Source: Candidatus Sumerlaeota bacterium (GTDB lineage: Bacteria > Sumerlaeota > Sumerlaeia > JADFCT01). Taken from it: 40,475 bases of DNA. Position 1 is the first letter of the stretch. Each line of letters begins with the position of its first letter. The notes under the pieces were generated by a model. The model saw nothing but the letters and a program-made list of their open reading frames with translations, made no database searches and was not told the origin of the DNA. Shown here piece after piece: positions 6,039 through 36,300 of this stretch. The stretch covers positions 1 through 40,475 of the forward strand of contig JAPLSP010000493.1 of the NCBI GenBank assembly GCA_026398575.1, given 5' to 3'. Made by a program: the position numbers and the translations under genes.

Positions 6039-7211
6039 TCAATCCACCGACACGCGGCACGCCCCTTGCGAGGGTTGGGAAAAATAGATCGCCGGTTTCA
6101 GCCGGCGGGGTTGAAAATATTGTTCGGTGACGCGCGCGCGGAATGACTCGACTGCGGCGTCGCGCACAAGGTGAACGGCGCATCCGCCGAATCCCGCTCC
6201 TGTCATTCGCGAACCCAGGACGCCTTCGCATTCCCCGCCGATCCGGCACAAGGCGTCCAAGTCTTCGCAGCTGACCTCATAATCGTCGCGCAGACTGGCG
6301 TGCGATTGATTCATAAGCGCGCCAAAGCCGGCCATGTCATTAGTCCGCAGAGCGGCGCCAGCCTGCAAAACGCGCGCGTTTTCATGAACGACGTGGCGGC
6401 AGCGGCGCCGCAGCATCTCGGGCAGGCGCGCTCCGGCTTGCGCGAATTCCTCGCACGAGATATCGCGCAACGCCCGTACTGCGCGTCCCAGCGCCGCGCC
6501 CAGCGCGGCGACGCCTTCCTCGCATTCGCGCCGCCGCTCGGCGTAGGCCGACGCTGCCAGCGTCCGCTTGCGCCGCGTGTTGCAGATGATGATCTGCGAA
6601 TCGCCGAAATTCAGCGGAATCCGCTCATACGTGAAGGCGCGGCAATCAATCAGCAGCGCGCTGCTGCTCGTGCCCAGCGTGCTGATGAATTGATCCATGA
6701 CCCCGCACGGCACCCCGACGAATTCATTTTCCGCCTGGCGCGCCAGGCAGATCTTCTCCAAATGCCCCATCCCCAAATTTTCGAGCTCGCAAAAAGCCGT
6801 CAAGACTGCCAGCTCCAGCGCAGCCGAGCTCGACAAGCCCGCGCCGCGCGGCACGTCGCCCGTGATCATCAAATCCGCGCCATCCAGCGTGTAGCCGGAT
6901 TTGAAGATCATATCCGCCACCCCTGCCACATATTTCGCCCACAAGGGGCCATCCGCGGGAAAGGGATCGCCAATTGTCAGCCAAACGGTCTTGCTGAAAT
7001 CCGTTGAAAACAGCTGCAGGCGACGGTCCGAACGCGCCACAGCGGCGACGGCCACGTCGAAATTCACCGTCATCGGCAAAACAAAGCCGCCATTATAGTC
7101 GGTATGCTCGCCGATCAGGTTGACGCGTCCCGGCGCTCGTGTGACAACGTCGGGGCGCCGCCCAAACTGACGCGCGCATCTTGCCGCCAGCATCTTCAGA
7201 TTAACCGCCAT
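6039..7211 (-). CDS. galK: Galactokinase
   Basis: GHMP kinase that phosphorylates D-galactose to galactose-1-phosphate in the Leloir pathway. All three family motifs are present: the galactokinase signature PGRVNLIGEHTDYNGG at about 27-41, the ATP-binding GDVPRGAGLSSSAA near 118, and GSRMTGAGFGGCAV near the C terminus. From the chosen ATG (MAVNLKML) it has 390 residues, the usual length. An in-frame ATG ten codons upstream lies at the edge of the repeat array and is less likely. No other gal genes are in the window; the downstream partner is the secreted DUF3472 protein. Confidence 0.95.
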   Translation of the reverse strand: MAVNLKMLAARCARQFGRRPDVVTRAPGRVNLIGEHTDYNGGFVLPMTVNFDVAVAAVARSDRRLQLFSTDFSKTVWLTIGDPFPADGPLWAKYVAGVADMIFKSGYTLDGADLMITGDVPRGAGLSSSAALELAVLTAFCELENLGMGHLEKICLARQAENEFVGVPCGVMDQFISTLGTSSSALLIDCRAFTYERIPLNFGDSQIIICNTRRKRTLAASAYAERRRECEEGVAALGAALGRAVRALRDISCEEFAQAGARLPEMLRRRCRHVVHENARVLQAGAALRTNDMAGFGALMNQSHASLRDDYEVSCEDLDALCRIGGECEGVLGSRMTGAGFGGCAVHLVRDAAVESFRARVTEQYFQPRRLKPAIYFSQPSQGACRVSVD

Positions 7212-7230
7212 CCCCCATCTCCCACTGAAA

Positions 7231-7441
7231 ATATCCAACATTCAATATCCAACCGAGAATGTCCAATGTCCAACAGGGAATGCCCAATGTCCAAGGAAAG
7301 AGGCGAAAGTCAAATATCTTACGCGGAGCTTTGTTGGAGATTGGGAATTCCCTGTTGGAAATTGGGAATTCCCTGTTGGACATTGGAAATTCTCTGTTGG
7401 ATATTGGACATTGGATATTGGACATTGGATATTGATTATTG
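7231..7441. repeat. TTGGACA/TTGGATA heptamer arrays as inverted arms around a core
   Basis: The left arm (about 7231-7292) carries units of TGTCCAA/TATCCAA; the right arm (about 7333-7441) carries the reverse complement, TTGGACA/TTGGATA, in part with longer units such as TTGGGAATTCCCTG. Between them is a unique core of about 40 bases. It fills the space between galK and the acidic-protein gene and could form a very long stem. Confidence 0.85.
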
Positions 7442-7448
7442 GCCTTTA

Positions 7449-8162
7449 TCACTCCTCGTCCGCATCCTCAAATCTTTCCGCTCCGCCTTTTTTCTTGCGC
7501 CGCTTGTGTCCCATTCCATCGTCGTCCTCGATTACTTCTTCCTCTTCCTCATAGCGATCCTGGCCGAAAGGCCGCTCCTCAAATTCTTCCAGTTCCTCCG
7601 GCTCGGCCTCATCCGTTGTCATGAACATCTTGCCCTTGTCATCAACCCCGTATGAAATCCAGACGCCGCCATCGGGATTATACACACGCGCCTCGGCTTC
7701 CTCCAGCGCGTCCAGTTCATCGAAGATCAGGCTCCAGAACTCGCGAGCGATCTCCTCGGCCAGGGATTCGTCGTCTCCCAGCGGCAGCACGGACAGACGC
7801 GAGCTGCCATAGTAGTCATAAGCCGCCGCCACCGCCACCGCTTCGCCATCCACGTCGCCGGCGCGGGTGACGATCAACGGCGCGCAAAAGCCGGCGCCTT
7901 CATATTCGCCCTCGTTCGCCGTTATCACGCCGAATAAGAACGATAGCCGCGCCAGGACGACCGCGGCGTCTGCTTCGCCCACTTTGTCAATCGCATCCGG
8001 GAACCGCTGACGCATCGCCTTGTCGTTCCAGACTTGTTCGATCGTGTGCAGGGGCGATTCCTCTTTGACGATCGTATGCGCGTCGTAACCCAGCGCTTCC
8101 AGTTCCTCGCTCGCCAGGTCCAGCGCGAAGCTGAATTCCTCGTATGTCACATTCGCGGCCAT
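7449..8162 (-). CDS. Acidic protein of unknown function
   Basis: A 237-residue protein I do not recognise. Residues 1-165 look globular (GYDAHTIVKEESPLHTIEQV; AVAVAAAYDYYGSSRLSV), and the tail is a highly acidic run (EEFEERPFGQDRYEEEEEV) followed by a basic patch HKRRKKKGG and a final EDADEE. There is no signal peptide or membrane segment. The ATG has a strong GAGGAGGG site. It lies about 155 bases downstream of the phage gp36-like gene on the same strand, so it might be the last gene of the head cassette or an unrelated host gene. Confidence 0.7.
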   Translation of the reverse strand: MAANVTYEEFSFALDLASEELEALGYDAHTIVKEESPLHTIEQVWNDKAMRQRFPDAIDKVGEADAAVVLARLSFLFGVITANEGEYEGAGFCAPLIVTRAGDVDGEAVAVAAAYDYYGSSRLSVLPLGDDESLAEEIAREFWSLIFDELDALEEAEARVYNPDGGVWISYGVDDKGKMFMTTDEAEPEELEEFEERPFGQDRYEEEEEVIEDDDGMGHKRRKKKGGAERFEDADEE

Positions 8163-8192
8163 AAAGACCCTCCTCTCGGCATTGAAACGGCG

Positions 8193-8208
8193 CCCAATTT
8201 AAATTGGG
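8193..8208. promoter_or_regulatory. 16-bp perfect palindrome upstream of the acidic-protein gene
   Basis: CCCAATTTAAATTGGG lies 30 bases before the start codon of the acidic-protein gene. It has the form of an operator site for a dimeric regulator, but no cognate regulator can be named. Confidence 0.3.
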
Positions 8209-8318
8209 GGAGATGCAAGGCGCGCTGAATCATTTGTCGTGCGAGGGAATAGGCAATGAAGCCCGGCGATGCAACCTAAAAAATGGAGTGACCGCTGCAA
8301 AACATGCGCCGCAACCGG

Positions 8319-8741
8319 CTAGTATTCCGCCATTCCTTCGGCATCGAAGGTCCGCGCCTGGCCGCGGCGCGTGTTTTCAGACAACGCCGCCGGGGAGAGC
8401 GGAGTCCCCTCAGGAAGATTGGCTTTTCCTGATGCCAGGGCCTCCAGCATCTGCCGTGCTTCCTGCGCCAGGAGCCGGAAATTATCCGGAGGCGTCGTTT
8501 GCCTGCGGGCATAAAGCCGCTCCAGCGCCAGTATTGCGCTCAGATAGAGGATCGCGTCTGGCGCCGATTCAAGCGGAACTACATAGCGTCCAGCAAGGCG
8601 GGCATTGATTTCGGCGTCGGTGTCAGAGATTGCGGCGGTGATGACAGTTTCATCCACAACGCTATCGCCATCGTCATCCGCAAGTGCGATCACCGCGTCC
8701 GCGCCAAGACGCGCTACAAGGTCATCAAGTGAGCTATACAT
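8319..8741 (-). CDS. Phage gp36-like protein (DUF1320)
   Basis: A 140-residue protein resembling the Mu gp36/DUF1320 family, a small protein of Mu-like head and head-tail connection modules. Typical features: an N-terminal YSSLDDLVARLGADAVIALADDD, then INARLAGRYVVPL with a DAILYLSAILALERLYARR helix. The ATG has AAAGGA seven bases upstream. It is the last recognisable phage gene in the minus-strand cassette and is separated from the capsid gene by a repeat array of nearly 300 bases, which is not normal for a phage operon. Confidence 0.78.
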   Translation of the reverse strand: MYSSLDDLVARLGADAVIALADDDGDSVVDETVITAAISDTDAEINARLAGRYVVPLESAPDAILYLSAILALERLYARRQTTPPDNFRLLAQEARQMLEALASGKANLPEGTPLSPAALSENTRRGQARTFDAEGMAEY

Positions 8742-8767
8742 GATCTATTCCTTTCATTAGGAAAGCA

Positions 8768-9022
8768 GGAGTCGGGGGTTAGGGACCAGGGGTCGGGGGT
8801 CGGGGATTACGGTTTGCGGTTTACGGTTTACGGTTTACGGTTTACGGACTGCGGATTACGGATTGAAGCAAAGCAGCGCGCATCCAAAATCTGAAATTGC
8901 CAGGGCATAACCTTTGCCGATAACGCCTGCTTTGCTCCAATCCGCAATCCGCAATCCGCAATCCGCAATCCCTTATCCCCGCCCCCTGATCCCCAACCCC
9001 TGACCCCCGACCCCTGACCTCT
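8768..9022. repeat. Concentric heptamer-armed palindrome, copy 1
   Basis: Layers from outside in: GGGGTCG-type units on the left (8768-8806) against CCCCTGA/CCCCGAC units on the right (8976-9022); GGTTTAC/GGATTAC units (8807-8864) against GCAATCC units (8939-8971); and an 82-base core, 8861-8942, that starts GATTGAAGCAAAGCAG and ends CTGCTTTGCTCCAATC, itself an inverted pair. The core also holds the small hairpin GGCA..TGCC. A second core copy of identical length lies on the other side of the capsid gene. Confidence 0.88.
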
Positions 9023-9030
9023 AGCGACTG

Positions 9031-9969
9031 CTAGGCCACCGCGCTCTTCCACAAATACCCCGCCCCCGCGGCGATCAGTTTGTGGTCGTAGTACTTCTGG
9101 ACGCGCAGCACGTCGGCTTTGCGGCGGTCTTCGCGCCAAACCTCGACGATCCGGCCCGCCACGCTGCCGGGCGCCGCCGTCCACAGGAAGGTATAGGCCA
9201 GCGAGACGGTCTTGAGGCCCGGACGCGGCGGCGTGTAGCACAGCAGGGCATCCTTGCCCCAGACGTACGACATCGAAGCCGTCTGGCCCTCGGCGGCCGT
9301 GTTCTTTTGGGCGCGCGGAACCAGGAGGCGCTCAACGTCGAACAATTCGGCCAGCACGTTCGGCGTGGCGATGCCCATGCGGACGTATTGGATGCGCTCC
9401 ACCACCTTCGGGTGCATCCGCACCGCGGCATAAACCTGGTATGGCAGCACGAGCGTGTTGGGCATCACGGACGCAGCGGCCAGGATCGTCGCCTTCTGCG
9501 CCTCGACCGCCGCCACCGGATCGCTGTCCGGATCGTCCCACTGATTGTCGCCCGAGAGCGTGTCGCCGGGGATGTCCGCGCTGTTGTGGATGGCGTCCGC
9601 GAGTTCGATTTCGCGATTCAGTTCGATCTTGCTCGTCAGGAACTCGGTGCGGTCAATGTCCACCTGAATCGCCGGATCGCTGTTTTCGCGCTCCTCATCG
9701 GGGATCACCGATTCCAGGGCGTGATCCTCGCAGAAATAGGAGTCCGAGGTCAGCGCGTAGTCCACGGCGTTGGCTTCGGACCCCGGCGCACGCCGGTCGT
9801 CGCTGGCGCGGAATTTTTCGCGCTCCGCGTCGTGGATAAAGTACTTGTCGCTTTGCTTGCGGACGCTGACAGCCGGCGCGATCAAGTCGGCGATCACGTC
9901 CGCATTGCGATAGGCGACGCTGACATTGGTCAGGGCCGCGTCAATATGCACCTGGGAAGTCTCAGGCAT
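9031..9969 (-). CDS. Phage major capsid protein
   Basis: A 312-residue protein with the pattern of a tailed-phage (HK97-fold type) major head protein found in Mu-like modules. The N terminus reads VSVAYRNADVIADLIAPAVSV and KQSDKYFIHD. A middle segment has LSGDNQWDDPDSDPVAAVE, followed by NTLVLPYQVYAAVRMHPKVV and GKDALLCYTPPRPGLKT. The fold is inferred from family resemblance. The ATG has AAAGGAGA, as expected for a highly expressed phage gene. The gene is intact. It is bracketed by two copies of the same heptamer-armed hairpin. No packaging or tail gene is within the window. Confidence 0.85.
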   Translation of the reverse strand: MPETSQVHIDAALTNVSVAYRNADVIADLIAPAVSVRKQSDKYFIHDAEREKFRASDDRRAPGSEANAVDYALTSDSYFCEDHALESVIPDEERENSDPAIQVDIDRTEFLTSKIELNREIELADAIHNSADIPGDTLSGDNQWDDPDSDPVAAVEAQKATILAAASVMPNTLVLPYQVYAAVRMHPKVVERIQYVRMGIATPNVLAELFDVERLLVPRAQKNTAAEGQTASMSYVWGKDALLCYTPPRPGLKTVSLAYTFLWTAAPGSVAGRIVEVWREDRRKADVLRVQKYYDHKLIAAGAGYLWKSAVA

Positions 9970-9998
9970 GCTTCTTGTCTCCTTTCAGATTTTTTGCC

Positions 9999-10232
9999 TC
10001 AAATTTCAAATTTCAAATTTCAGATTACGGATTACGGATTACGGATTGCGGATTGCGGATTGAAGCAAAGCAGTGCGTATCTGCTATCTGAAACTGCCAA
10101 GGCATAACCTCTGCCAATAACGCCCGCTTTGCTCCAATCCGCAATCCGCAATCCGCAATCCGTAATTTTCCAACTCGGAACTCGGAACCCGGAACTCGGA
10201 ACCCGGAATTCGGAACTCGGAACTCGGAACTG
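9999..10232. repeat. Heptamer-armed palindrome, copy 2
   Basis: CAAATTT units at 9999-10022; GGATTAC/GGATTGC units at 10024-10062; an 82-base core at 10058-10139; inverse GCAATCC units to about 10164; then GGAACTC/GGAACCC units at about 10172-10230. The core aligns without gaps to the copy at 8861-8942, with 11 differences by my count, 9 of them transitions. Both copies have the same orientation. Confidence 0.88.
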
Positions 10233-10235
10233 GGT

Positions 10236-10628
10236 TTACGGCGCGATGCGTTCGTGCAGCGCGATGAAGACTTCGATGATGTCGCCATCGCCCGTCGAAG
10301 CCGTCTCGGCGAATCCCAGCACCTTGACTTTGGTGTTCGTCGTTTCGTTGGCGATGGCCTTGACCTTGCCCGTCGCATCCGCCACGTTGACCGGCGCGCC
10401 CACCGCGACGACGCCGGCAGCCTCCACGCGCGCCACGCCCGCCTTGCGGATGCTGACGTTGCGATACTGATCTTGGGCGTGCGTGGTGACGCCCAGGATG
10501 TGGTCGGCATTCTGCCCGCTGGGTACCACGCATTCGCCCGCGTTCGTTCCCTGCGCCACCACACGGAAAGCCGAAACGCCGCCGCTCTGCATGACCGTGT
10601 AGGCCTTGTCCAGGATGTAGTGTGACAT
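10236..10628 (-). CDS. Capsid decoration (cement) protein, DUF2190-like
   Basis: A 130-residue, beta-rich protein similar to DUF2190 proteins, which bind the outside of phage capsids and stabilise them. It has small repeated GxxV elements (KAGVARVEAAGVVAVGAPVN; TGKVKAIANETTNTKVKVLG) and ends in IIEVFIALHERIAP. The start has AAAGGAGGAGAAG just before the ATG. It sits between protease/scaffold and major capsid genes, the usual place. Confidence 0.78.
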   Translation of the reverse strand: MSHYILDKAYTVMQSGGVSAFRVVAQGTNAGECVVPSGQNADHILGVTTHAQDQYRNVSIRKAGVARVEAAGVVAVGAPVNVADATGKVKAIANETTNTKVKVLGFAETASTGDGDIIEVFIALHERIAP

Positions 10629-10651
10629 CTTCTCCTCCTTTATGTATTTGG

Positions 10652-10796
10652 TGATTCGTGATTCGTGATTCGTGGCTCGTGATTTGTGGTTCGCGATCCC
10701 AAATTCCAGGCCATTGAACTCAGAACTCGGAACTATGAACTCAGAACTCGGAACTATGAACTATGAACTCGGAACTGGGAACCGTGAACTCGGAAC
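10652..10796. repeat. GATTCGT and GAACTCG/GAACTAT heptamer arrays
   Basis: The array from 10652 to about 10696 repeats GATTCGT; a second from about 10717 to 10796 repeats GAACTCG, GAACTAT and variants. They fill the gap between the decoration and protease genes and touch the stop codon of the latter. Confidence 0.88.
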
Positions 10797-11975
10797 TCAC
10801 GCCTGCCGCGCGGCCTGGCAGAGCGCTTCGGCGTAGCTCAATCGCGCGTCGCTCTCGCGCAGCGATAAAGCCCGTTGATGAAGGTTGATCGAAGCCGAAG
10901 AAACCGGCGCCGCCGATCCGGTGGACGGCAGCGAAGATTCCGCAAATGAGATTTTTCCCGACGGCGCCGCAGCCGTTTCGCTCATTGGCGCCAACGCCGG
11001 AAGCGTTTGCAGAAATGACTCGAACCATTCCAGCGGCGTCAGACCGCTTTTTTCCCTCAACGGCTCCGCGCAGGGATTGGCGGGGGCGTCATTGAGCGTC
11101 ATCATGAACTCGGCGATGCCCGCCCGTTCCCATGCGGGAACAATCCGCCCTTCTTCGATCAAGCGCTGGCAGCAGCGGGTCGCCCGTTCGCGCCGCGTCT
11201 CCTCTTCCATTGCCGCAAGGTCCGATTGCAGCCGCGTTTTCTGCTCGTTGAGAAGAGCGATCTCTTCGCGCAGCGATGAATGCCCGGCGCTGTCGCCGCT
11301 GTCTGCATCGTCCTTGTCTAGGCAGCCGGGGTCGCTGCCCGCCTCGCTGTTTGTGACTTTCTCGTCTTCGCCGCTTGCGACGGCGCATCCTTCGCTGCTT
11401 GCGTCTTCGGCGCCTCCTCCGCCGGCGCCTCCGCCGCCATCGCGGACGACGTTCTTATTGCTTTGCTTTTCGGCCTCGTTGTTGTCCTTGCCGTCGTTGT
11501 TGTCCTTCGTCAGCTGGCCTGCCTCTTCCGCAAATTGTTCCGTCGTCTTTTCCGATTGCTCGTCAAAGCCATACGCCTCGTATTCGCTCTGCTCGGAAAA
11601 GACGGGATCGGCCAGGCCCTTGACCTCGGGAGCGCAGGCCCCTAAGAAACTGATCGCCCGCAGATAGGGCCGCCCGGTAGCCTTGAAGCTGCGATAGATT
11701 TCAATGCTGCGTTTGCGGAACGCTCCGGACCGGATCAGATTGAGAAACTCCCCGCTCAAGTCCTTGAGCGTCGCCACCAGGACTTCGCCCCGCCGCGCCA
11801 GCGAGTGAACCCATCCAAACGCCGGCCCGGATTGCGCATGATCCACCGTGACGGGCGCTTCGTGGAGCGACAGCGTATAGTCGCTGCACAACGCGTCCAG
11901 ATCCTCGGTGCGATACGCCCCTTTCGCCCCATAATCTCCCGCCCGAAAAACCTCCACTTCCAAAAATGAACCCAT
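10797..11975 (-). CDS. Phage head maturation protease / scaffold (Mu gpI-like)
   Basis: A 392-residue protein. Residues 1-130 resemble the Mu I-type prohead protease domain: FRAGDYGAKGAYRTEDLDAL, then EAPVTVDHAQSGPAFGWV with a histidine, and GAFRKRSIEIYRSF with a candidate catalytic serine. About 150-215 is a low-complexity acidic, Gly-rich linker. About 215-260 is a coiled coil (LREEIALLNEQKTRLQSDLA), as expected for an internal scaffold, and the C-terminal motif is LSYAEALCQAAR. The ATG has AAAGGAGG. Protease and scaffold in one chain is the norm for this family. Confidence 0.75.
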   Translation of the reverse strand: MGSFLEVEVFRAGDYGAKGAYRTEDLDALCSDYTLSLHEAPVTVDHAQSGPAFGWVHSLARRGEVLVATLKDLSGEFLNLIRSGAFRKRSIEIYRSFKATGRPYLRAISFLGACAPEVKGLADPVFSEQSEYEAYGFDEQSEKTTEQFAEEAGQLTKDNNDGKDNNEAEKQSNKNVVRDGGGGAGGGGAEDASSEGCAVASGEDEKVTNSEAGSDPGCLDKDDADSGDSAGHSSLREEIALLNEQKTRLQSDLAAMEEETRRERATRCCQRLIEEGRIVPAWERAGIAEFMMTLNDAPANPCAEPLREKSGLTPLEWFESFLQTLPALAPMSETAAAPSGKISFAESSLPSTGSAAPVSSASINLHQRALSLRESDARLSYAEALCQAARQA

Positions 11976-12014: not shown

Positions 12015-12112
12015 TCCGTGCCAGTCCGTGCCAGTCCGTGTCAGTCCTTGTCCGTCCACCCCTGACCACCGACCCCTGACCCCTGACCCCCTGACCCCCG
12101 ACCCCTGCTTTA
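12015..12112. repeat. CCGTGCCAGT decamer and GACCCCT heptamer arrays
   Basis: About 12015-12055 repeats the 10-base unit CCGTGCCAGT with decay, followed by GACCCCT/GACCCCC/GACCACC units to 12108. They fill the gap between the portal pseudogene and the protease gene. Confidence 0.85.
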
Positions 12113-13385
12113 TTATTTTCCCATTTCCTTGACTTCCGTCTCCGCTTGTTTCTCGGCGGCAACCTGGCCTTGGATCACTGGCAGGTCGCGCTGCGCTCCA
12201 TCCTTGGGGCGGTCGGCGGGCGAGTGCGTGGGACTGTCGCCCCATGACACGCGCGGCAATCCCAGCGCGGCGCGCACCTCGTTGATCGTCAGGACGCCAT
12301 ACTGCAGGTGATACTGATAGAGATTGCGGTCGTCGAAGCTGAGCGCGCGCTCGCCCGGCGCCGGCGCGGGGCGGCCATAGCGCTGATAGAAATATTCCGC
12401 CGACAGCGGCACTCCGAGAGCGACCAGACGCTTGTCTATGTCCGCCTGTTCGCTGAGGTTCTCGTCTTTGGAGGTGTCAATCGTCCATTGCGGCGCGGCC
12501 ACGAGCGGGCCGAAGTTGAAGTCCACGATCCATCGGATCAGCTGCCCGCTAATCACATCCATCAGCGCCCGGTTCCCGATACGTGCCCGCCGTGCCCTGT
12601 CGCTGCGCTTCAAGCAGTTCGATCGCCACACTGTCGGGGATCGCCACGCCGGCGTCGTGCCGGATGCTGTCAATCACCTCCAGCAAGCGATCCTGTTCCT
12701 CCCGCGTGGCGCCGGGGCGATAGCGCGCCACCACGGTGGGAGATCCAAAGCGTTCGTTGTAAGCCACCCAAAACTTGAGATTGTTTTTCTTGAACCAGTA
12801 ATACCAGTAGGCCTTCTCGCAGAGGCCCTGACCGTAGGGATTGTCGTTGCGGGCGTTGAAGGCGAGGATGAGAAACTTGCGGTCGGGCACGGCGGCGCCT
12901 TCGGACGCCGGATTGTCCGCAAGGCGCAGGCGTCCAGCGTCATCGAAGCGGAATCGCCCGGCATAGCGGCTGCGAATCGCCTCGGGAACCAGCGCGCCAT
13001 CGCGCCGCGCCCAGATCACCTCGGAAATCGCGATGCCCTTGCCAAGCGCATCGAGCATCTGAGCCAGCGCGCCGTCGAAATCGTGAATCGCCGCGAGCGT
13101 CTGCTCGACGAAGCGAGCCATCGCGCGTCCCGGCTCGTCTTGCGAAGCCGGAACGATCTTCCGCGCCCGGCTCAATACGCCGTTCTTGCGCGTTTGGAGG
13201 ACCGAGAACAGATGCCCGTCCTTGTCTTCCATCTCGTTGAAAAGATCATACAACCCCGTCCGCCCGCGATACGGCGCTCCGGCCGCACGCAGAAAATTGA
13301 CGGGCGAATCGTCTCCCGCGTAGTAGCCGGACCAAATCGCCGGCTGGCGCGGTGCCACCTCGTGAAATACCGGAATTGGCGCCAT
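12113..13385 (-). pseudogene. Phage portal protein (Mu gp29/DUF935-like), frameshifted
   Basis: The first frame starts at an ATG (MAPIPVFHEV) preceded by AAGGAG and has portal features: NEMEDKDGHLFSVLQTRK, FDGALAQMLDALGKGIAISE, NPYGQGLCEKAYWYYWFKK and ERFGSPTVVARY. It ends EPGADGCD soon after AIPDSVAIELLEAQRQGTAG. The continuation is in another frame from about NRALMDVISGQLIRWIVDFN to the end. The switch lies at about 12575-12581, and the whole locus is 1273 bases, 424 codons plus one base, so a single extra base explains it. Either a real inactivating mutation or an assembly error. Confidence 0.8.
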
Positions 13386-13598
13386 GTTTAGGGGAACTCC
13401 TTGGCGGAATCGTTGTGCGCGTGGGGGGCGATGTAAGCGCCCCTTCAAGGTATCCGAGGGCATTCAGTATCGCTGCAATGCTCCCGTCGCCCCTTGTCTT
13501 GCGCGCGGCCCTAACCAACGCCAATGCGCTCAAAAAATCAATTCCCCACGGGACGCTTCGCGCTGCTTCCAGGCATTAGAAGGCAAAGATGATTTTCA

Positions 13599-13651
13599 GG
13601 CAGAATCATTGAGGGCAGAATCATTATGATTCTGCCCTCAATAATTCTGCC
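13599..13651. repeat. 53-bp twin-box palindrome, copy 1
   Basis: Two direct GGCAGAATCATT boxes are followed by their inverse, giving a nearly perfect 53-bp palindrome. It is almost identical to 15027-15079; I see one difference near the right end. The two copies lie on either side of the polysaccharide deacetylase gene. Confidence 0.92.
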
Positions 13652-13705
13652 TGCAATTATGCGCGTTTGCTTGACAATTGAAAGCCGCCCGCTTCTCTAA
13701 TAATT

Positions 13706-13785: not shown

Positions 13786-13877
13786 CTGACTGATAATCAA
13801 TGCGGGTTTTGCCGTTGACTGTGCGCGCCGGCTTCCTATATTTGCCTCGCCTCTCTTTCTCAAGGAATCCCCTCTCC

Positions 13878-14945
13878 ATGCCACTGATCTCCTGCTCCAA
13901 CGCGGCAAATCGCCTGCAAATCGTCCTGCTGTGCATTTCAATCAGCGTATTATCTTCTTCTCAATATGCCGCCGCAGCCGATGACTGGGGCGAAACGAAT
14001 ATCGCCCGCTGGAAAAACGACGCGCAGGCCGCTGTCTCCCTGACCTTTGACGACAATGGTTTGACCCGCCGCGATGCCATCAAGGTCCTGGACCGCTTTG
14101 GCCTGAAAGCCACCTTTTTTGTGATTACAGATGACCTGAACGAAGTTACAAAGCCGATGTTCCGGATGATTAGCGACGGCGGACATGAGGTTGCCAGCCA
14201 TACATCGCATCACTACTTCCTCGCCAAGATTCCGGCGGCCACCCTCGAAAAGGAATTGGTGGATTCCAAACGCTATCTTGAAAAATTCACCAGCCAGCCG
14301 TGCGTTTGTCTGGCCTATCCTTATGGCAGCGTCAACGCCGCGGTGCGCGCCGCAACCATGAAGCACTATCTCTCGGCGCGCGGAACCGGATCGGGCGACA
14401 ATCCGCCGGAAGCGATCAATCTGGCCTGCCTGCGCCGCAATCACACGCCCGCCAAGCGCGTGGCGGACGAGGATTTCATCGCCCTGTTGGATGAGTATGT
14501 GCGCCGCGAGGTTTCCATCGGCGGATGGGCCATCGAAATGTTCCACAACGTTATGCCCTACAACGATGAACTCCACGTCTCCTCGACCACATTGGCTGCT
14601 CATTGCGAGCATCTGACGTCGGATTCGTTGGGGCAGTTATGGATCGCGCCTCAAGGCGTCGTCACCCGCTACTACCTTGAAGCGCAGGCTACTTCAATCA
14701 CAGTGCTGTCGTATGGACGGCATGTCCGCAGCATCCAGCTCAAGTCCAGCCTCGATCCTGTTCTCTTCAATTGCCCGTTGACGCTCATCACGCGGATTCC
14801 TGCGGAATGGGCGCGCGCAAATATCGCCATCGAGCAGGCCGGTCAGGCTCTACCCCGCGCCATTCATCTCTATGACGAGTACGCCCTCGCGCTCTATGAC
14901 GCCCTCCCCGCCGCCGGCCCCGTCCGCATTATCATAAAACCCTAA
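13878..14945 (+). CDS. Secreted polysaccharide deacetylase (NodB domain)
   Basis: Metal-dependent carbohydrate esterase (CE4 type) that removes acetyl groups from a polysaccharide outside the cytoplasm. The chosen start, MPLISCSNAANRL, has AAGGA at suitable spacing and gives a signal peptide (LQIVLLCISISVLSSSQYAAAA). NodB motifs: LTFDDN with D58/D59; SHTSHH with H108 and H112 as metal ligands; and AYPYGSVN as motif 3. The C-terminal part (from about 245) is a beta-rich extension. The 355-residue length is usual. It stands alone between two palindromes, the only plus-strand gene in the region. Confidence 0.88.
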   Translation: MPLISCSNAANRLQIVLLCISISVLSSSQYAAAADDWGETNIARWKNDAQAAVSLTFDDNGLTRRDAIKVLDRFGLKATFFVITDDLNEVTKPMFRMISDGGHEVASHTSHHYFLAKIPAATLEKELVDSKRYLEKFTSQPCVCLAYPYGSVNAAVRAATMKHYLSARGTGSGDNPPEAINLACLRRNHTPAKRVADEDFIALLDEYVRREVSIGGWAIEMFHNVMPYNDELHVSSTTLAAHCEHLTSDSLGQLWIAPQGVVTRYYLEAQATSITVLSYGRHVRSIQLKSSLDPVLFNCPLTLITRIPAEWARANIAIEQAGQALPRAIHLYDEYALALYDALPAAGPVRIIIKP

Positions 14946-15026
14946 CCTGACAGAGCCGCAAGCATTCAGGCAAAATTTGCCAATAGGTGGATGTCCTTCA
15001 ATTTTGAAAAAACGCGCATAAAAAAA

Positions 15027-15079
15027 GGCAGAATCATTGAGGGCAGAATCATTATGATTCTGCCCTCAATGATTCTGCC
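15027..15079. repeat. 53-bp twin-box palindrome, copy 2
   Basis: Same element as 13599-13651, with GGCAGAATCATT boxes and their inverse; also followed by TGCAA as in copy 1. It lies about 80 bases after the deacetylase stop and could serve as a terminator hairpin or be a small non-autonomous mobile element. Confidence 0.92.
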
Positions 15080-15166
15080 TGCAAATCGCTTTATAGCTAA
15101 AGTTAGCGCGGCAAGGGTGCAATCAAACAGGCAACAATTTCCAATCACCAATTACAAATCCGCAAT

Positions 15167-15217: not shown

Positions 15218-16819
15218 TCACACTCCCGGCGCCACCGGCAGGCAAATACCAGCCGAAGCGGAATCGCGGAAGGCGCGCTGACGCCATCTCACATGCCGCC
15301 GTCTCGCGCATTCCACCAGTGGACGCCAAACCGCGCGCGTCAGACGCAGCCGTATGAGCGTCGGCCAGAGGAAATTCATTTTCTTATAGAGAAGGCTCAT
15401 CGCAAGATAGCCCGGAATCGCCACCGCCGCCGCAGGCCGCCGCCGCCAGATCGAGCGCAGTGAAAAAATCCTCCGGTAGCACCATGCATAGCCTTCTTCG
15501 AGCTGCGCCGGCGTCAAGTGGCGCGGAAGAAAAACCGCATGGCCGGTGTCATATAACTCCCAGTTGCGGTGCAGCAGCCGTCCCTCGGCCTCCATCCGTC
15601 GGAAAAGCGGCGTGCCGGGGTAGGGCGTAAGGATATGGAACGTCGCGCATTCCAGCCGGTTGTCCTCGATCCATCGCGCCGTCCGCTCGAAGATGTCCGG
15701 GCGGTCATGATCGAATCCAAAGACAAAACTGCCGTTCACCTGAATGCTTTGATCGTGAAAGACCTTCACCAGACGCGCATAGTCCTCGGGATTGGCGCCG
15801 CGCTTATGGGCGTCGCGCAGATTTTCTTCGGTCAGCGATTCGAATCCCACAAAAACGCCTGTGCAACCCGCCAGCGCCATCTCGCGCACCAGCTCGGGAT
15901 CGCCGGCGACGTCCAGCGTCACCGCCGCGCTCCAAATCTTATCGAGCGGACGCAGCGCCCGGCACAGCGCGCGCAAATATTCCGGGTCGGTGCTCAGATT
16001 GTTATCGGTGAAGACGGCGTACGGTTCGCCCGTCGCCGCGAACTCCTGCGCGACCTGGGCGGCGTCTTTTCGCTGATAAGGCATTTCGAGCCCGCGCGTC
16101 GAGAGGTAACAGAAATCGCAGCGATTGCGGCAGCCGCGCGAAGCGATCAAACTGGCAGCCGTCAAAAAATCGCGCCGGTCGAGCGCCTCGCGTCGGACCG
16201 GCGGCGCCTCGCAATAGGGCTTGCGATAATCGCCTTCATAGCGCGCCTTCAGATTGCCGTGTTCGGCGTTGCGCAAAATTTCCGGCCACGCTTGCGTCCC
16301 CTCGCCCACGCATATCGCATCGCAATGGGCCGCGGCCTCCTCAGGACAGCCAATCACATGCGGTCCGCCGAGAACCACCATCGCGCCGCGCCGGCGATAC
16401 CAGCGGCTCAGGCGATAAGCCCGCCGCGCAAAGGTCAGATGAACCGTGATCCCGACGACCTGCGGAAACGGCTCGCACGGCGGCGGCCCTTGCAGCAGAT
16501 TCTCATCCCAGACTCGCACGGTCCATTCCGGGGGCGTCGCCCCCGCCAGAGCCGTCAGCGCCTGCGACGGCGTCAACACATGCTTGCCGAAACTCCCGTT
16601 CGGGTCCTTGCGATAGAAGGGATTGATAAGCAGCGCATAGCGCGGCGTCGGCGCCTGAGTTTCCCGCCGCTCATCCAGCTTCGGCGCCACCCGCATCGCG
16701 CGCGGATACCACAGCCAACGGCTTGTTCTCGATCCCATGCCAGCAGGTGATTTATCCAGCGCGGCTTTGAGCGCTTTCAGCCGCCTGTTCAGCGATTTGC
16801 GGCACAAAAAGAAAGGCAT
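15218..16819 (-). CDS. B12-binding radical SAM protein
   Basis: A 533-residue protein with an N-terminal cobalamin-binding-like domain (YALLINPFYR, then VVGITVHLTFARRAYRL and VVLGGPHVIGCPEEA, about 60-175) and a radical SAM core with the iron-sulfur motif CRNRCDFC (C230, C234, C237). Later motifs are VFTDNNLS, GCTGVFVGFESL and FGFDHDRPDIFERT. These enzymes carry out methylations or other radical steps on lipids, sugars or natural products. The ATG has GAGGAA. It is the last gene of the five-gene minus-strand cluster, so a glycan or lipid substrate is likely. The C terminus is basic with a hydrophobic stretch. Confidence 0.88.
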   Translation of the reverse strand: MPFFLCRKSLNRRLKALKAALDKSPAGMGSRTSRWLWYPRAMRVAPKLDERRETQAPTPRYALLINPFYRKDPNGSFGKHVLTPSQALTALAGATPPEWTVRVWDENLLQGPPPCEPFPQVVGITVHLTFARRAYRLSRWYRRRGAMVVLGGPHVIGCPEEAAAHCDAICVGEGTQAWPEILRNAEHGNLKARYEGDYRKPYCEAPPVRREALDRRDFLTAASLIASRGCRNRCDFCYLSTRGLEMPYQRKDAAQVAQEFAATGEPYAVFTDNNLSTDPEYLRALCRALRPLDKIWSAAVTLDVAGDPELVREMALAGCTGVFVGFESLTEENLRDAHKRGANPEDYARLVKVFHDQSIQVNGSFVFGFDHDRPDIFERTARWIEDNRLECATFHILTPYPGTPLFRRMEAEGRLLHRNWELYDTGHAVFLPRHLTPAQLEEGYAWCYRRIFSLRSIWRRRPAAAVAIPGYLAMSLLYKKMNFLWPTLIRLRLTRAVWRPLVECARRRHVRWRQRAFRDSASAGICLPVAPGV

Positions 16820-29691: not shown

Positions 29692-30720
29692 TTAGCTGCA
29701 CTGCCCATAATTCACCGGCTGCAACGATTTCTCTTGAAAAACTTTCTGCCACTGGCCGCTCATCATTGACTTATATTCCACTTCCCAATGATACCCCACG
29801 CGCAACGGGCCGAATTCGGCGGCGATGGGCGGATCGCCCGGAAGTGGTTTGCCGGGATGGCAGCAGATTTCGAGAACGTTCGGACGCTGTCCCATCGCTC
29901 CCATCGCTCCCATCGTTCCCATCTCTCCCATATCTCCCATCTCTTCCATCATTCCCTGCGCTCTCTGCGCTTTCAGCCAGGCACGGAAGTTCTCTGCGGT
30001 GAAACGCGGGCCGTGATCCGCAACGCCCCAGAGCGCATCTGGCCAGCGCACGTTTGGGTTCGCGCGATGAAACCGGCTCCAAAACCATAGCAGCCGCGCG
30101 CGCATTGCCCCGGCGTTCCAGCGCGTCAGCGGCGTCCACTCCACCACGCGCCGCGCCCAGCGGATGCCATGCCGCTCGGCCAGTCGCAGCGCGATGGGCA
30201 TCAGGCGCGGCCAGGAATGAATATGCTTCTCGCTGTCCACGTGCGTGAGCGTGAACCCCGTCTCCAAAAGGTGTTCGATCTGCCGTCCCCATTCGAGTTC
30301 GACTTCTTTCAGATTGAGCGAGCGCGTCGCATAGCGCAGGAATAATTTTTTGTAGTTGCCGAGCAACAATCCATCCGCTCCCACCAGCGTCGGAATCTCC
30401 GACGGCGGCGAAACCGGCTTCCCGCGCAGCAGATTCAAATGAGCTCCAAAGCCCACTACAAATTGCGGATTGCGAATTGCGGATTGCGGATTCTCGGAAC
30501 TCGGAACCCGGAACTCGGAACTGGGCCTCTGCAACTCGGAACTCGGAACTCGGAACTCGGAACTCGCAAGCGCGAGCGCCTCTTTCAGGAAGGGGCCATT
30601 GGCCATCAGCGACGCGCTCGTAACAACACCCGCTGCGGCGCCATCCTCCACGGCGCGTTGAACGGCCGGATGCAGACCAAGGTCATCTACATTAATAATA
30701 AGTTTTATGGCTGGGGGCAT
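29692..30720 (-). CDS. YdjC/ChbG-family carbohydrate deacetylase with in-frame repeat inserts
   Basis: A 342-residue enzyme of the YdjC family, metal-dependent deacetylases of chito-oligosaccharides or lipid-linked sugars (HpnK is a relative). The catalytic start is IINVDDLGLHPAVQRAV with D12/D13; GAHLNLLRG gives the metal His (H94) and HVDSEKHIHSWP the third region. Between LKEALALA and VVGFGAHLNL, where relatives have a short loop, about 34 residues (53-86) are heptamer translations (SSEFRVP, AIRNPQ). Another insert near 258-280 is a run of MGEMGTMGAMGAMG. The last residues lie in a further repeat. Activity cannot be judged; all metal motifs remain. Confidence 0.85.
   Translation of the reverse strand: MPPAIKLIINVDDLGLHPAVQRAVEDGAAAGVVTSASLMANGPFLKEALALASSEFRVPSSELQRPSSEFRVPSSENPQSAIRNPQFVVGFGAHLNLLRGKPVSPPSEIPTLVGADGLLLGNYKKLFLRYATRSLNLKEVELEWGRQIEHLLETGFTLTHVDSEKHIHSWPRLMPIALRLAERHGIRWARRVVEWTPLTRWNAGAMRARLLWFWSRFHRANPNVRWPDALWGVADHGPRFTAENFRAWLKAQRAQGMMEEMGDMGEMGTMGAMGAMGQRPNVLEICCHPGKPLPGDPPIAAEFGPLRVGYHWEVEYKSMMSGQWQKVFQEKSLQPVNYGQCS
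29891..29954. repeat. CCCATCNNT nonamer array inside the YdjC-type gene
   Basis: About seven units (CCCATCGCT, CCCATCGTT, CCCATCTCT, CCCATATCT) in a row, read on the minus strand as a Met-Gly-x repeat. A 9-base unit keeps the reading frame whatever the copy number. Confidence 0.9.
30461..30566. repeat. GGATTGC and GGAACTC heptamer arrays inside the YdjC-type gene
   Basis: About five GGATTGC-type units followed by about ten GGAACTC-type units. Read on the minus strand they give AIRNPQS and SSEFRVP peptides with no stop. Three units (21 bases) keep frame; gain or loss of one or two units would shift it. Confidence 0.92.
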
Positions 30721-30813
30721 GACGGAAGCCGCCTAAGTACGTATTTTTGCGCATAAGATAGCATAAGATTATCGCGAATACCTATGCTCCAGGAATTTCA
30801 TGCGGCTTGGAGC

Positions 30814-30922
30814 GGCGCCAGCATTTGGAGTGCGGTTGCTTGCTGCCGCTTTAGCTACGCCAAGCTTATAGATCATGGAAGCAAAAGCGGCAGCAAGCGA
30901 CCGCACTCCAAATGCTGGCGCC
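30814..30922. repeat. 39-bp inverted repeat with 31-base loop
   Basis: The arms at 30814-30852 and 30884-30922 match with one mismatch (a possible GU pair); they hold GGCGCCAGCATTTGGAGTGC and CTTGCTGCCGCTTT. The element lies in the 314-base gap between the divergent YdjC-type start and the HicB-like stop; the rest of the gap holds nothing I recognise apart from a possible decayed toxin (about 30960-31034). Confidence 0.92.
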
Positions 30923-31034
30923 ACTTCTGAGCACACTGCTTTCATTCCTTCGGCAAAAATACGTGATAGTAATTCTGAATCAGAACACTAAGTAACCATA
31001 GCCAATTCGATCCCTCAATTTCCGCAGGACGTTA

Positions 31035-32367: not shown

Positions 32368-34020
32368 TTATTTCCCCAACGTCGCAATGATATTCCATCC
32401 CGCCTTCAGCCTTGCCGTGAGATCGCCCAGGCTTCGGATCGAGAACAGCTCCTTCACCAGCCGCCAAGGGCGCAGATAAAACGCACGCATCGCCATCCGT
32501 TGCGCACGCATCAATTCCTCCGGTGACAGCTCGTCCGCCTGCATCACCGCCGAGCCTTCTTCCTCGTAGGCGTCCCAGTCGTCCGTGGTCAGCCAGCCGC
32601 GCTCCAAAGCCTGGCCATAGAGTTCCGTTCCTGGGAACGGCGTGGCGACGTGGAAGTTGACGTAGTCGGGATTGATGTCTTTGGCGAAGGCGATCGAGCG
32701 CCGCACGGTCTCCCACGTCTCGCCCGGCAGACCCAGGATGAAGTACGCCATTGATTTCAACCCCGCCTGCCGCGTCAGCGCGATGGCTTGGCGCGATTGC
32801 TCGAGCGTGATGCCCTTGCGCGTGGCTTTCAAGATCGCCGGATCGCCCGACTCGATTCCATACGAGACCATCAGGCATCCGGCCTGCTTCATCGCGCGCA
32901 GCAATTCCAAATCCACCGCATCCACCCGGCTGTTGGCGATCCATTTGATCCGCAAACCCTCGTCGCGAATCGCGTTGCACAATTGCATCGCCCAGGCGCG
33001 GTTGAGTGTGAAGGAATCAGTCATGAAGACGATATTGCGGATGCCGAGCTCCTGATTGATCTGGCGCAATTCCGCGATCACATTTTCCACGGCGCGTGTC
33101 CGCACCTTGCGCCCCCAGACGCCCCCCGCGCGGCAAAAAGTGCACGGCCACGGACACCCGCGCGTCGGGATCACCGTGGCAAACGGTCCGTCCGAAAAAA
33201 AAGGCATTCGATAAGCCTGATTCGGCAGCAGGCGCCGCGCCGGAAGGGGATAGGAGTCCAGGTCGTTGGTCGGAAGCCGCGAATGACTGTAGGAAATTGA
33301 CGATTGACGATTGACGATTGACGATTCCCGCTTCGCGATTGCGGATTGCGAATTGCGGATTACGGATTGCTCTTCGGCTCTCGCTCCTTGCCCTTCGCTG
33401 CTCGGAACTCCGGGAGGAGAACTCGGAACTCGGAACTCGGAACTCGGAACTCCGGGAAAGGAACTCGGAACTCGGAACTCGGAACTCGGAACTGCAACCG
33501 TGGTTGCCCGCCACGCCAATCCAGGCGCCTCCGCAAGCGTCTCATCCGGATGCTCGCGCACGCGCGCCACACCTTCACGCTCCACCACCGTCAGCAATTC
33601 CGCCAGCGTTTCTTCCGCTTCATTGATGATGACCAGGTCGGCGTGGCTGTCGCGCAGACTTTCCTCCGGCAATGCCGAGACGTGTGTTCCCGTCCAGGCG
33701 ATCAGCGCGTTCGTCAGTTCGCGCAGCCGCCCGATGACCGCTACGTCATTTTTGAAAGTCGGCGTCGAAGTGGCAGCGACGATGACATCCGGCTGCCATT
33801 CCGTCGCCTCCCGCTCCACTGCTGCGATACCGCCGTCCGAAGCCATTCCGTCAATGATGCGCGCCTCATGTCCGCCTTGCTCGGCCATCGCCGCCAGGTA
33901 TGCCAGTCCCGTCTGCGGCCATAGTTCGCCCGCCACGGCGCGTCGTCCGCAACGCCCAATCTCCTTCATATATCGAGCCCCCGACAGCGCAGGGGGATTG
34001 ATGAGCAAAACCTTGAGCAT
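32368..34020 (-). CDS. B12-binding radical SAM protein with repeat-expanded linker
   Basis: A 550-residue enzyme: cobalamin-binding domain (VLLINPPALSGARYMKEIGR; WTGTHVSALPEES) at 1-170, and a radical SAM core with CPWPCTFC (C289, C293, C296), then GCLMVSYGIESGD and SMAYFILGLPGETWETV. Between LAWRATT and RLPTNDLDSYPLPA, residues about 176-247 are built from heptamer repeats (SSEFRVPSS, SVIRNSQSAI, SSIVNRQSSI). The catalytic parts are intact and in frame on both sides, so the insert is tolerated as an inter-domain linker. It is probably a methyltransferase or oxidative enzyme in lipid or natural-product synthesis. Confidence 0.87.
   Translation of the reverse strand: MLKVLLINPPALSGARYMKEIGRCGRRAVAGELWPQTGLAYLAAMAEQGGHEARIIDGMASDGGIAAVEREATEWQPDVIVAATSTPTFKNDVAVIGRLRELTNALIAWTGTHVSALPEESLRDSHADLVIINEAEETLAELLTVVEREGVARVREHPDETLAEAPGLAWRATTVAVPSSEFRVPSSFPGVPSSEFRVPSSPPGVPSSEGQGARAEEQSVIRNSQSAIAKRESSIVNRQSSISYSHSRLPTNDLDSYPLPARRLLPNQAYRMPFFSDGPFATVIPTRGCPWPCTFCRAGGVWGRKVRTRAVENVIAELRQINQELGIRNIVFMTDSFTLNRAWAMQLCNAIRDEGLRIKWIANSRVDAVDLELLRAMKQAGCLMVSYGIESGDPAILKATRKGITLEQSRQAIALTRQAGLKSMAYFILGLPGETWETVRRSIAFAKDINPDYVNFHVATPFPGTELYGQALERGWLTTDDWDAYEEEGSAVMQADELSPEELMRAQRMAMRAFYLRPWRLVKELFSIRSLGDLTARLKAGWNIIATLGK
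33299..33494. repeat. GACGATT, GGATTGC and GGAACTC arrays inside the radical SAM gene
   Basis: About four GACGATT units (33299-33327), four to five GGATTGC/GGATTAC units (33339-33369) and about eleven GGAACTC units in two blocks split by GGGAGGAG- and GGGAAAGG-like breaks (33402-33494). All are stop-free in the sense direction. Confidence 0.92.
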
Positions 34021-35007: not shown

Positions 35008-36300
35008 ATGTCCAGAAACTATCGTCTGGAAACGCTTTGCCTCCACGCCGGCTATGCGGGCGATCCGGTGACTCATGCCTGCGGGACGCCGGTTTATCGC
35101 ACTTCCGCGTATCATTTCCGCGACACGCAGCACGCCGCCGATCTGTTTGCCCTGAAGGAATTGGGCAATATATATACGCGTCTGATGAACCCGACGCAGG
35201 ATATCCTCGAACAGCGCATGGCCGCGCTCGAAGGCGGCGCCGCCGCGCTGGCGCTGGCCTCCGGCACCAGCGCCGTTCACTACGCCATCATCAACGTCTG
35301 CCGGCAGGGCGATGAGATCGTCGCTTCGAGCAACCTTTACGGCGGCACCTATACCATGTTCGACTGCATTCATCCGCAGTTCGGCATCAAAACCGTTTTC
35401 GCGGAGCCGCATGATCCGGAGAATTTCGCCAAAGCCATCACGCCGAAGACCAAGATGATCTTCATCGAAACCATCGGCAACCCCACGCTCTACGTCCCGG
35501 ATTTCCAGGCCATCGCCACGATTGCTCACGCGCATGGGCTTCCCCTCGTCGTTGACAGCACCTTTACGCCGCCGCCGGTGTTCCGCCCGCTGGAATGCGG
35601 CGCCGACATCGTCATCCACTCGCTGACCAAGTGGCTCGGCGGACACGGCATCGGCATCGGCGGCATCGTCGTGGATTCGGGCAAGTTCGACTGGACGAGC
35701 GACAAGTTCCCGCTCTTCAACGAGCCCGATCCCAGCTATCACGGCCTGCGCTATGCGCGCGACCTGGGGCCGCTCAATCCGCTGGCCTTCATCCTGCGCA
35801 TGAGGCTCGTGCCGCTGCGGAACCTCGGCGCCTGCATTTCGCCGGATAACGCCTGGATGTTTTTGCAGGGGATCGAAACCTTGCCTCTGCGGATGAAGCG
35901 CCATTGCGAAAACGCCTCGATCGTTGCAAAGCATCTTCAGGCGCACAACAAAGTCGAATGGGTGCGCTATCCCGGCCTGCCGGACGATCCGGCGGCCGCC
36001 AACGCCTACCGGTATTTCTCGAACGGTTTCGGCGGCATGGTGGTCTTCGGCATCAAGGGCGGCGCGGCGGCGGGCGCCAAGTTCATCAACGCCCTGCAAC
36101 TCTTTGCCCACGTGGCCAACGTCGGCGACGCCAAGAGCCTGGCGATCCATCCGGCCAGCACCACCCATTCGCAGCTCAGTCCGCAGCAGCAGCTCGAAGC
36201 GGGCGTGGAACCGGGTCTGGTGCGCCTTTCCATCGGCATCGAACACATTGACGATATTTTGGAAGATATCAATACCGCGCTGGAGGCATCGCAAAAATGA
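35008..36300 (+). CDS. metY: O-acetylhomoserine sulfhydrylase
   Basis: A PLP enzyme of 430 residues that makes homocysteine from O-acetylhomoserine and sulfide (direct sulfhydrylation). It has the Cys/Met-metabolism fold: NIYTRLMNPTQDILEQRMAA, ALASGTSAVHYA, VVDSTFTPP with D183, and SLTKWLGGHG with the PLP lysine K208; the C-terminal VGDAKSLAIHPASTTHSQLS is characteristic. It overlaps metX by 4 bases (ATGA) and is the first gene of the operon. Confidence 0.95.
   Translation: MSRNYRLETLCLHAGYAGDPVTHACGTPVYRTSAYHFRDTQHAADLFALKELGNIYTRLMNPTQDILEQRMAALEGGAAALALASGTSAVHYAIINVCRQGDEIVASSNLYGGTYTMFDCIHPQFGIKTVFAEPHDPENFAKAITPKTKMIFIETIGNPTLYVPDFQAIATIAHAHGLPLVVDSTFTPPPVFRPLECGADIVIHSLTKWLGGHGIGIGGIVVDSGKFDWTSDKFPLFNEPDPSYHGLRYARDLGPLNPLAFILRMRLVPLRNLGACISPDNAWMFLQGIETLPLRMKRHCENASIVAKHLQAHNKVEWVRYPGLPDDPAAANAYRYFSNGFGGMVVFGIKGGAAAGAKFINALQLFAHVANVGDAKSLAIHPASTTHSQLSPQQQLEAGVEPGLVRLSIGIEHIDDILEDINTALEASQK

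Follow-up and report, generated by a model that had tools for sequence, protein, structure and literature searches.

Two related heptamer-armed hairpins with a common 82-nt core lie directly 3' of adjoining phage-derived genes in a Sumerlaeota contig

The stretch of Candidatus Sumerlaeota DNA analyzed here (40,475 nt in all, referred to as the window) carries two hairpins with tandem heptamer arms, one on each side of a phage-type capsid gene, which raises the question of what these hairpins are, how they came to have the same core and whether they act in the transcript. The initial annotation regarded them as a defined, perhaps mobile or RNA-forming element rather than a product of slippage alone. 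Both hairpins, named HP1 and HP2 (Table 1), are related to each other and lie directly 3' of adjoining phage-derived genes. As annotated, their 82-nt cores aligned without a gap in the same orientation, with 71 of 82 positions identical and nine of the 11 differences being transitions (blastn E 2e-22 among the sequences compared), and in both copies the arms were of the GGATTGC/GGATTAC type on the left and of the GCAATCC type on the right. The description of each core as an inverted pair was accurate for copy 1, but the right half of copy 2 reads CCGCTTTGCTCCAATC, one base off. An outer layer of GGGGTCG-type and CCCCGAC-type units belonged to copy 1 only, as stated; copy 2 had AAATTTC units on the left and AACTCGG units on the right, which do not pair with each other. 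The best ungapped inverted-repeat scores of the two hairpins were 24 and 35 (maximum 11 in 200 base shuffles of each), and RNA folding gave z values of -12.68 for HP1 and -10.56 for HP2, with none of 200 dinucleotide shuffles equally stable. The core ends in 16-nt imperfect terminal inverted repeats. A G-quadruplex motif, seen as a motif in the sequence only, was present in the outer arms of HP1 and absent from HP2. No intrinsic terminator was detected on the minus strand at either hairpin in a scan limited to loops of 3-8 nt, which places long hairpins outside its scope. The sense reading frame of the core is open, and four of the 11 differences were at third positions by hand count, which is no excess.

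Table 1. Coordinates of HP1, HP2, their parts and neighboring features in the window.
Feature	Position	Strand	Remark
Heptamer-armed hairpin, CAATGTC/TTGGACA units, different core	7230..7442		
Head-tail adaptor gene, downstream of HP1	8319..8741	-	phrog_195
HP1, whole	8766..9023	- (sense strand)	starts 7 nt past capsid stop codon
HP1 outer arm, GGGGTCG-type units	8766..8805		
HP1 inner arm, TTTACGG/GGATTAC units	8806..8860		
82-nt core, copy 1 (HP1)	8861..8942	-	
HP1 inner arm, CAATCCG units	8938..8973		
HP1 outer arm, CCCCGAC/CCCCTGA units	8974..9023		G-quadruplex motif, capsid-sense strand
Major capsid protein gene, between hairpins	9031..9969	-	phrog_1005
HP2, whole	9995..10234	-	abuts stop codon of gene 10236-10628
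HP2 arm, AAATTTC then GATTACG/GATTGCG units	9997..10057		
82-nt core, copy 2 (HP2)	10058..10139	-	
HP2 inner arm, CAATCCG units	10135..10166		
HP2 outer array, AACTCGG units	10172..10232		unpaired with opposite side's outer layer
Head scaffolding-like gene, upstream of capsid gene	10236..10628	-	phrog_673
Heptamer arrays GTGATTC, GAACTCG, next gap upstream; no inverted pair	10643..10798		
Solitary CCCCTGA-type heptamer array	12058..12107		

The gene between the hairpins was confirmed as a major capsid protein gene by its profile match (E 1.9e-84), and HP1 and HP2 occupy consecutive gaps of a phage-derived cluster transcribed from the minus strand, in which portal (two frames), protease, head scaffolding-like, capsid and adaptor genes were identified. 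Terminase, tail and integrase genes were not found among the 19 window proteins compared with PHROGs and the 19 compared with Pfam. Two overlapping frames carry the portal gene (12113-13463), with profile parts 44-296 and 346-421, a split that indicates either decay or an assembly error. The phage module looks partial or decayed. The capsid protein had 829 relatives (E up to 0.001), and the named ones among the best 120 came from Candidatus Sumerlaeota (up to 70%). This was also the nearest organism-named relative of the homoserine O-acetyltransferase at 36297-37493 (58%), and the first organism-named match of the radical SAM protein at 15218-16819 came from Gemmataceae (70%). Perhaps the capsid and homoserine acetyltransferase genes belong to a vertically kept, gene-transfer-agent-like cluster; a literature search found no paper on Sumerlaeota with tandem repeats or gene transfer agents. 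For a relative of each protein (P0013 and P0247) the same longest contig of 87,972 bases is listed, which would fit linkage of the two genes in those relatives also.

Heptamer arrays were not confined to the surroundings of the capsid gene. With a codon-scored gene call, the window contained 11 non-coding heptamer arrays in 6 of its 20 gaps of at least 60 nt. The hairpins do flank the capsid gene as annotated, but arrays also fill other gaps, and only the 82-nt core is peculiar to the pair. Among IMG/VR loci with related capsid genes, arrays occupied 12 of 15 gaps in L126, 11 of 15 in L171, 8 of 15 in L125, 8 of 13 in L140, 7 of 14 in L122 and 9 of 14 in L164. Among the 83 loci examined (window included), 8 had at least four non-coding arrays (array-rich loci) and 71 had none; thus, such arrays are a habit of some lineages. 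A capsid-specific element was rejected: in the 8 array-rich loci, 9 of 16 capsid-flanking gaps had an array, compared with 65 of 167 gaps overall, and both flanking gaps were occupied in three of the eight (the right-hand hairpin of L122 is not counted by the array criterion). In the window and L118-L199 (83 loci), arrays of period 7 reached 1.42 per kb of non-coding DNA versus 0.082 per kb of coding DNA; periods 5, 6 and 8-12 gave 0.01-0.30 per kb non-coding, and period 14, a multiple of 7, gave 1.15.

Several other repeats were observed in the window and its relatives. GATTGCG-type arrays adjoin GAACTCG-type arrays at three distant gaps (33337-33493, 30462-30566 and 10135-10231, the last in inverse orientation), two of which are outside the phage genes. 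A polysaccharide deacetylase gene (13800-14945) lies between two 78-nt inverted repeats (13591-13668 and 15010-15087) that are 91% complementary, and each of these repeats holds its own near-perfect hairpin with GGCAGAATCATT stretches. Further long inverted repeats, in which no tandem array was called, are located at 645-877 and 30811-30925, with arms 93% complementary. At about 6547-6595 of L202, and also in L201, a GGATTGC array continues directly into a Shine-Dalgarno-like stretch and an ATG. No heptamer array was called in L120:1-500, the closest IMG/VR capsid relative (70%), where the gaps show, by eye, repeats about 8-9 nt long of the type CCGACTAA/ACGGACATA.

The orientation of the arrays followed the direction of transcription. 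In the window and 82 loci, the sense strand was mostly the G-rich one in arrays nearer the upstream stop (47:14, P 2.7e-5) and mostly the C-rich one in those nearer the downstream start (35:16, P 0.011; Fisher test on the two counts, 1.4e-6). A second set of 56 loci, selected solely for the presence of three GGATTGC units, gave 44:10 after stops and 30:12 before starts (2.7e-7). These P values are too small, since both arms of a hairpin were counted and some loci share contigs or stretches. In the window alone, arrays were G-rich 4:1 after stops (with one further array lacking skew) and C-rich 3:0 before starts. Taken singly, L125, L126, L140 and L164 followed the rule clearly, L171 did so weakly (7:3 and 5:6) and L122 not at all (2:2 and 3:3). 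The first, poorer gene caller placed spurious ORFs over many arrays and gave the same direction (20:9 and 18:10, P 0.06 and 0.18); the codon-scored caller was used for the final strand and pairing counts. Stop-proximal arrays began at a median of 6 nt past the stop codon. In hairpins, the G-rich arm came first on the sense strand in 25:6 and 11:2 cases, and in 2:0 in the window. Reverse-complement heptamers were found in 20 of 49 adjacent array pairs of the same gap versus 45 of 821 pairs from different gaps (P 9e-12), and the excess was weak in the second set (7 of 21 versus 22 of 184). A strict array-consensus test called none of five window pairs inverted, because the arrays of the window mix units. 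Enriched 6-mers in hairpin cores provided nothing usable. The strand rule suggests, without proving it, that the hairpins act in the RNA copy.

The core itself was found nowhere else in the collections searched. Three sequence patterns (35, 22 and 21 bases long) and one gapped stem pattern were run against IMG/VR, and none of the four had a match; an arm-to-core junction query matched nine stretches, none of which contained the core. In 145 IMG/VR loci, with the window copies as positive control, the best other blastn match was 28 nt (E 0.091), and there was no third copy in the window. A covariance model recovered only the two window copies from 83 sources on either strand, and in 63 further loci it gave six weak matches (E 0.009-0.49). 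The five inspected (all except that in L210) proved to be hairpins or arrays of heptamers whose cores differ, or a GC-rich stretch that looks coding. Among 145 genomes drawn from the phylum of a genome labelled Verrucomicrobia, the longest match was 33 nt, and the 28-33-nt matches in two of them (E 6.5e-4 and 0.007) are close to chance for that many genomes. In a phage collection, positions 8700-10260 matched two records, both inside the capsid gene, and the core of copy 1 had no match in a plasmid collection; the matches listed for a 16-base query against genome contigs resembled chance hits. A 45-nt match (82%) in L083 was discounted, as it contains the 16 bases used to select that locus. 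Within the IMG/VR, phage, plasmid and one-phylum genome searches, the core therefore occurs only here, an outcome that the initial annotation had itself held to speak against its proposal. Its suggestion of mobility was unsupported: no third copy in the searches, no target-site duplication by eye and no transposase in a Pfam scan of 19 window proteins.

On the other hand, the core was copied as a unit, and to that extent the view of a defined element rather than slippage alone was borne out. The best segment common to HP1 and HP2 was 142 nt long (8828-8969 and 10025-10166; 88.7% identity), and both of its ends fell within or at the end of heptamer arrays. Comparable copies were present in relatives. 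L171 contained copied hairpin parts at 7132-7214 and 7775-7859 (89.5%), its hairpins sharing a single arm plus a portion of the core, L122 had two like hairpins around its capsid gene (8155-8214 and 9242-9301; 80%), and inverted hairpin copies were found within L126 and L140; in most copied hairpins of relatives, the arms were alike and the cores differed. Together with these copies, the location of the segment ends in arrays would favor exchange between arrays over transposition.

Three other explanations were weighed against these data. We consider it rather unlikely that the hairpins are functionless products of slippage, in which arrays expand wherever a gap tolerates them, template switching at the replication fork creates their inverted partners and the core was copied by chance between two adjacent gaps. 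Such an origin agrees with the layered, unequal arms and the unpaired outer layers of HP2, with the lineage-bound distribution of arrays and with the account of the Xanthomonas repeats, whose text identifies no regulatory role (PMC4692102). It also agrees with the lack of wobble bias: other hairpins showed no sense-strand wobble excess (G.U versus A.C 25:21, P 0.66, and 4:11, P 0.12; 26:33, P 0.43, in an earlier count with ORFs of the first-caller type; the window had 7:3, P 0.34), and RNA-level selection for paired arms is thus not shown. However, a strand rule of opposite sign at stops and starts is unexpected from neutral slippage or from a strand-wide mutation bias, and the core stem was left unchanged (0 of 30 stem versus 11 of 52 other positions differing, P 0.006; with a 32-nt stem, 1 of 32 versus 10 of 50, P 0.04). 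A non-autonomous mobile element of MITE or REP type, with 16-nt inverted ends and a transposase elsewhere in the genome, could account for a discrete core with near-perfect inverted ends in two same-orientation copies. We regard it as very unlikely, given that no further copy was present in the window, the IMG/VR patterns, the 145 IMG/VR loci or the 145 one-phylum genomes, that target duplication was not seen by eye, and that the arrays on the two flanks run in inverse orientation, an arrangement that insertion into a single array would not produce.

The remaining alternative is a new structured regulatory RNA, specific to the capsid operon, in which a three-way-junction core sits on a long heptamer stem. 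Every one of the 31 pairs in the copy 1 sense-strand fold was also a standard pair in copy 2 (62 of 62 cells when both copies are counted), with four of the 11 differences changing one side of a pair, all pairs being kept, and seven falling in loops. When 11 like changes were placed at random, the share of trials keeping every pair was 0.0019 (0.0033 with the 4-nt run as one event, 0.013 with interior-only changes), or about 0.008 for the best P when the four fold-preservation tests are considered. Preservation was limited to the sense strand: the antisense strand had 3 of 28 pairs broken (P 0.37; antisense reversed, P 0.48). The idea of an RNA-forming core is consistent with this, but the covariation proposed as a check is missing from the two copies, which show no compensatory (two-sided) change, and two sequences are all there is. 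In the reverse test, copy 2 had a different best fold, of which 3 of 30 pairs were broken in copy 1 (P 0.40); the inner helices have four pairs each, the core interior alone folded no better than shuffles, and Rfam gave no match at gathering score and only below-threshold microRNA models. Selection on the core as RNA is possible, judging from the two sequences, and the capsid-operon-specific regulator seems quite improbable. Hardly less improbable is a wider version, in which the core would be a structured RNA with a three-way junction (a 23-pair stem and two 4-pair side hairpins) on an extendable heptamer stem. Selection would maintain it on the capsid-sense strand, copying would have brought it to one stop codon after another in the phage-derived operon, and it would represent, in this one lineage, a widespread and unnamed class of 3'-end hairpins with heptamer arms set by the direction of transcription.

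Our preferred reading is that HP1 and HP2 are local copies of a hairpin whose kind is known and whose core is new, and that any action they have would be in the transcript; taken as a whole, we consider it somewhat probable. Its first part, that they are locally copied intergenic hairpins of a loosely known kind, is highly probable. Given the arms, common core, position, strand rule and array-bound segment ends observed here, the structure would be one of convergent heptamer arrays between same-direction genes, with the G-rich arm just past the upstream stop and the C-rich arm before the next start. Recombination between similar heptamer arrays, or template switching between them, may have carried the core from one gap to the next over 1.2 kb, and slippage would have reshaped each arm. 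A role of such a hairpin in the transcript is plausible, though less than probable. In that role, it could act as a roadblock directly behind the terminating ribosome, which might mark and protect the message of the upstream gene at its 3' end and set it apart from the gene that follows. For HP1, a quadruplex might form first in the G-rich arm, which would then pair with the C-rich arm. Against such a role, the portal gene in two frames implies that the phage module may be decayed and need no regulation. The common core indicates that a heptamer-armed hairpin can be copied into another gap in one piece. With the strand rule present in phage-derived contigs, a role at the transcript level becomes testable.

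Other tandem heptamers are the STRR heptamers of cyanobacteria, and BIMEs are grouped with REP elements as intergenic palindromes. Calothrix heptanucleotides are mentioned in PMC4692102; STRR heptamers resemble HP1 and HP2 as tandem heptamers, and the accounts consulted describe no paired hairpins with a common core for them. REP palindromes, for which mRNA stabilisation is among the hypothesised roles, share with HP1 and HP2 both their intergenic palindromic nature and the mechanism proposed here, as far as the account in PMC3733652 goes. However, REP/BIME elements are 20-40 bp long and without heptamer arms, and their GTAG/CGTC tag or its complements were absent from both cores. The terminal inverted repeats of the cores are MITE-like. 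MITEs occur in many dispersed copies with target-site duplication; here there are two copies in 40 kb, with none elsewhere in our searches. The TAACTGA heptamers of Beggiatoaceae, Cyanobacteria and Bacteroidetes, with a suggested post-transcriptional role, are likewise intergenic and tandem; according to the relevant text of PMC4679880, they are direct repeats built from a single invariant unit, most of which, in the main genome, lie just upstream of starts, with one indirect repeat only, in contrast with the inverted, mixed units of HP1 and HP2. In a literature search on heptameric repeats with hairpins in Planctomycetes/Verrucomicrobia, the term 'heptameric repeats' occurred in none of the best 12 of 36 results.

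The closest counterpart calls for a correction to the initial annotation, which knew of no named family with this plan. In the sections of Rehm et al. (2015) that concern us (PMC4692102), GGGNATC-type heptamers are described in Xanthomonas and Nostoc, with convergent pairs of arrays between aligned genes in Xanthomonas (70 convergent inverted pairs among 186 repeats in Xcc, 75 among 183 in Xac) and few paired repeats in Nostoc. Those repeats are spread over the whole genome; in the window, arrays lie in 6 of 20 gaps. Past stop codons, the G-rich strand of these repeats is the sense strand, and before starts the reverse holds; in Xac most are transcribed, and that text leaves the role of such arrays, common in some bacteria, open. 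The hairpins studied here agree with them, as described there, in their 7-nt period, intergenic position between aligned genes, proximity to stops (mostly within 50 nt), strand rule and convergent stem-loop pairs; the quadruplex motif is present in the outer arms of HP1 and absent from HP2. In place of the unit GGGNATC/GGGGAYT, the units here are GGATTGC, GGATTAC, TTTACGG, GGGGTCG and AACTCGG, and HP1 and HP2 are therefore of the same kind as those pairs and not members of that repeat family. They also differ from the published repeats, as far as these sections go, in their layered compound arms, common 82-nt semi-palindromic core, phage-derived genes and Sumerlaeota-like contig. The general plan is thus already known; new are the common core and the strand rule in a new, phage-contig setting.
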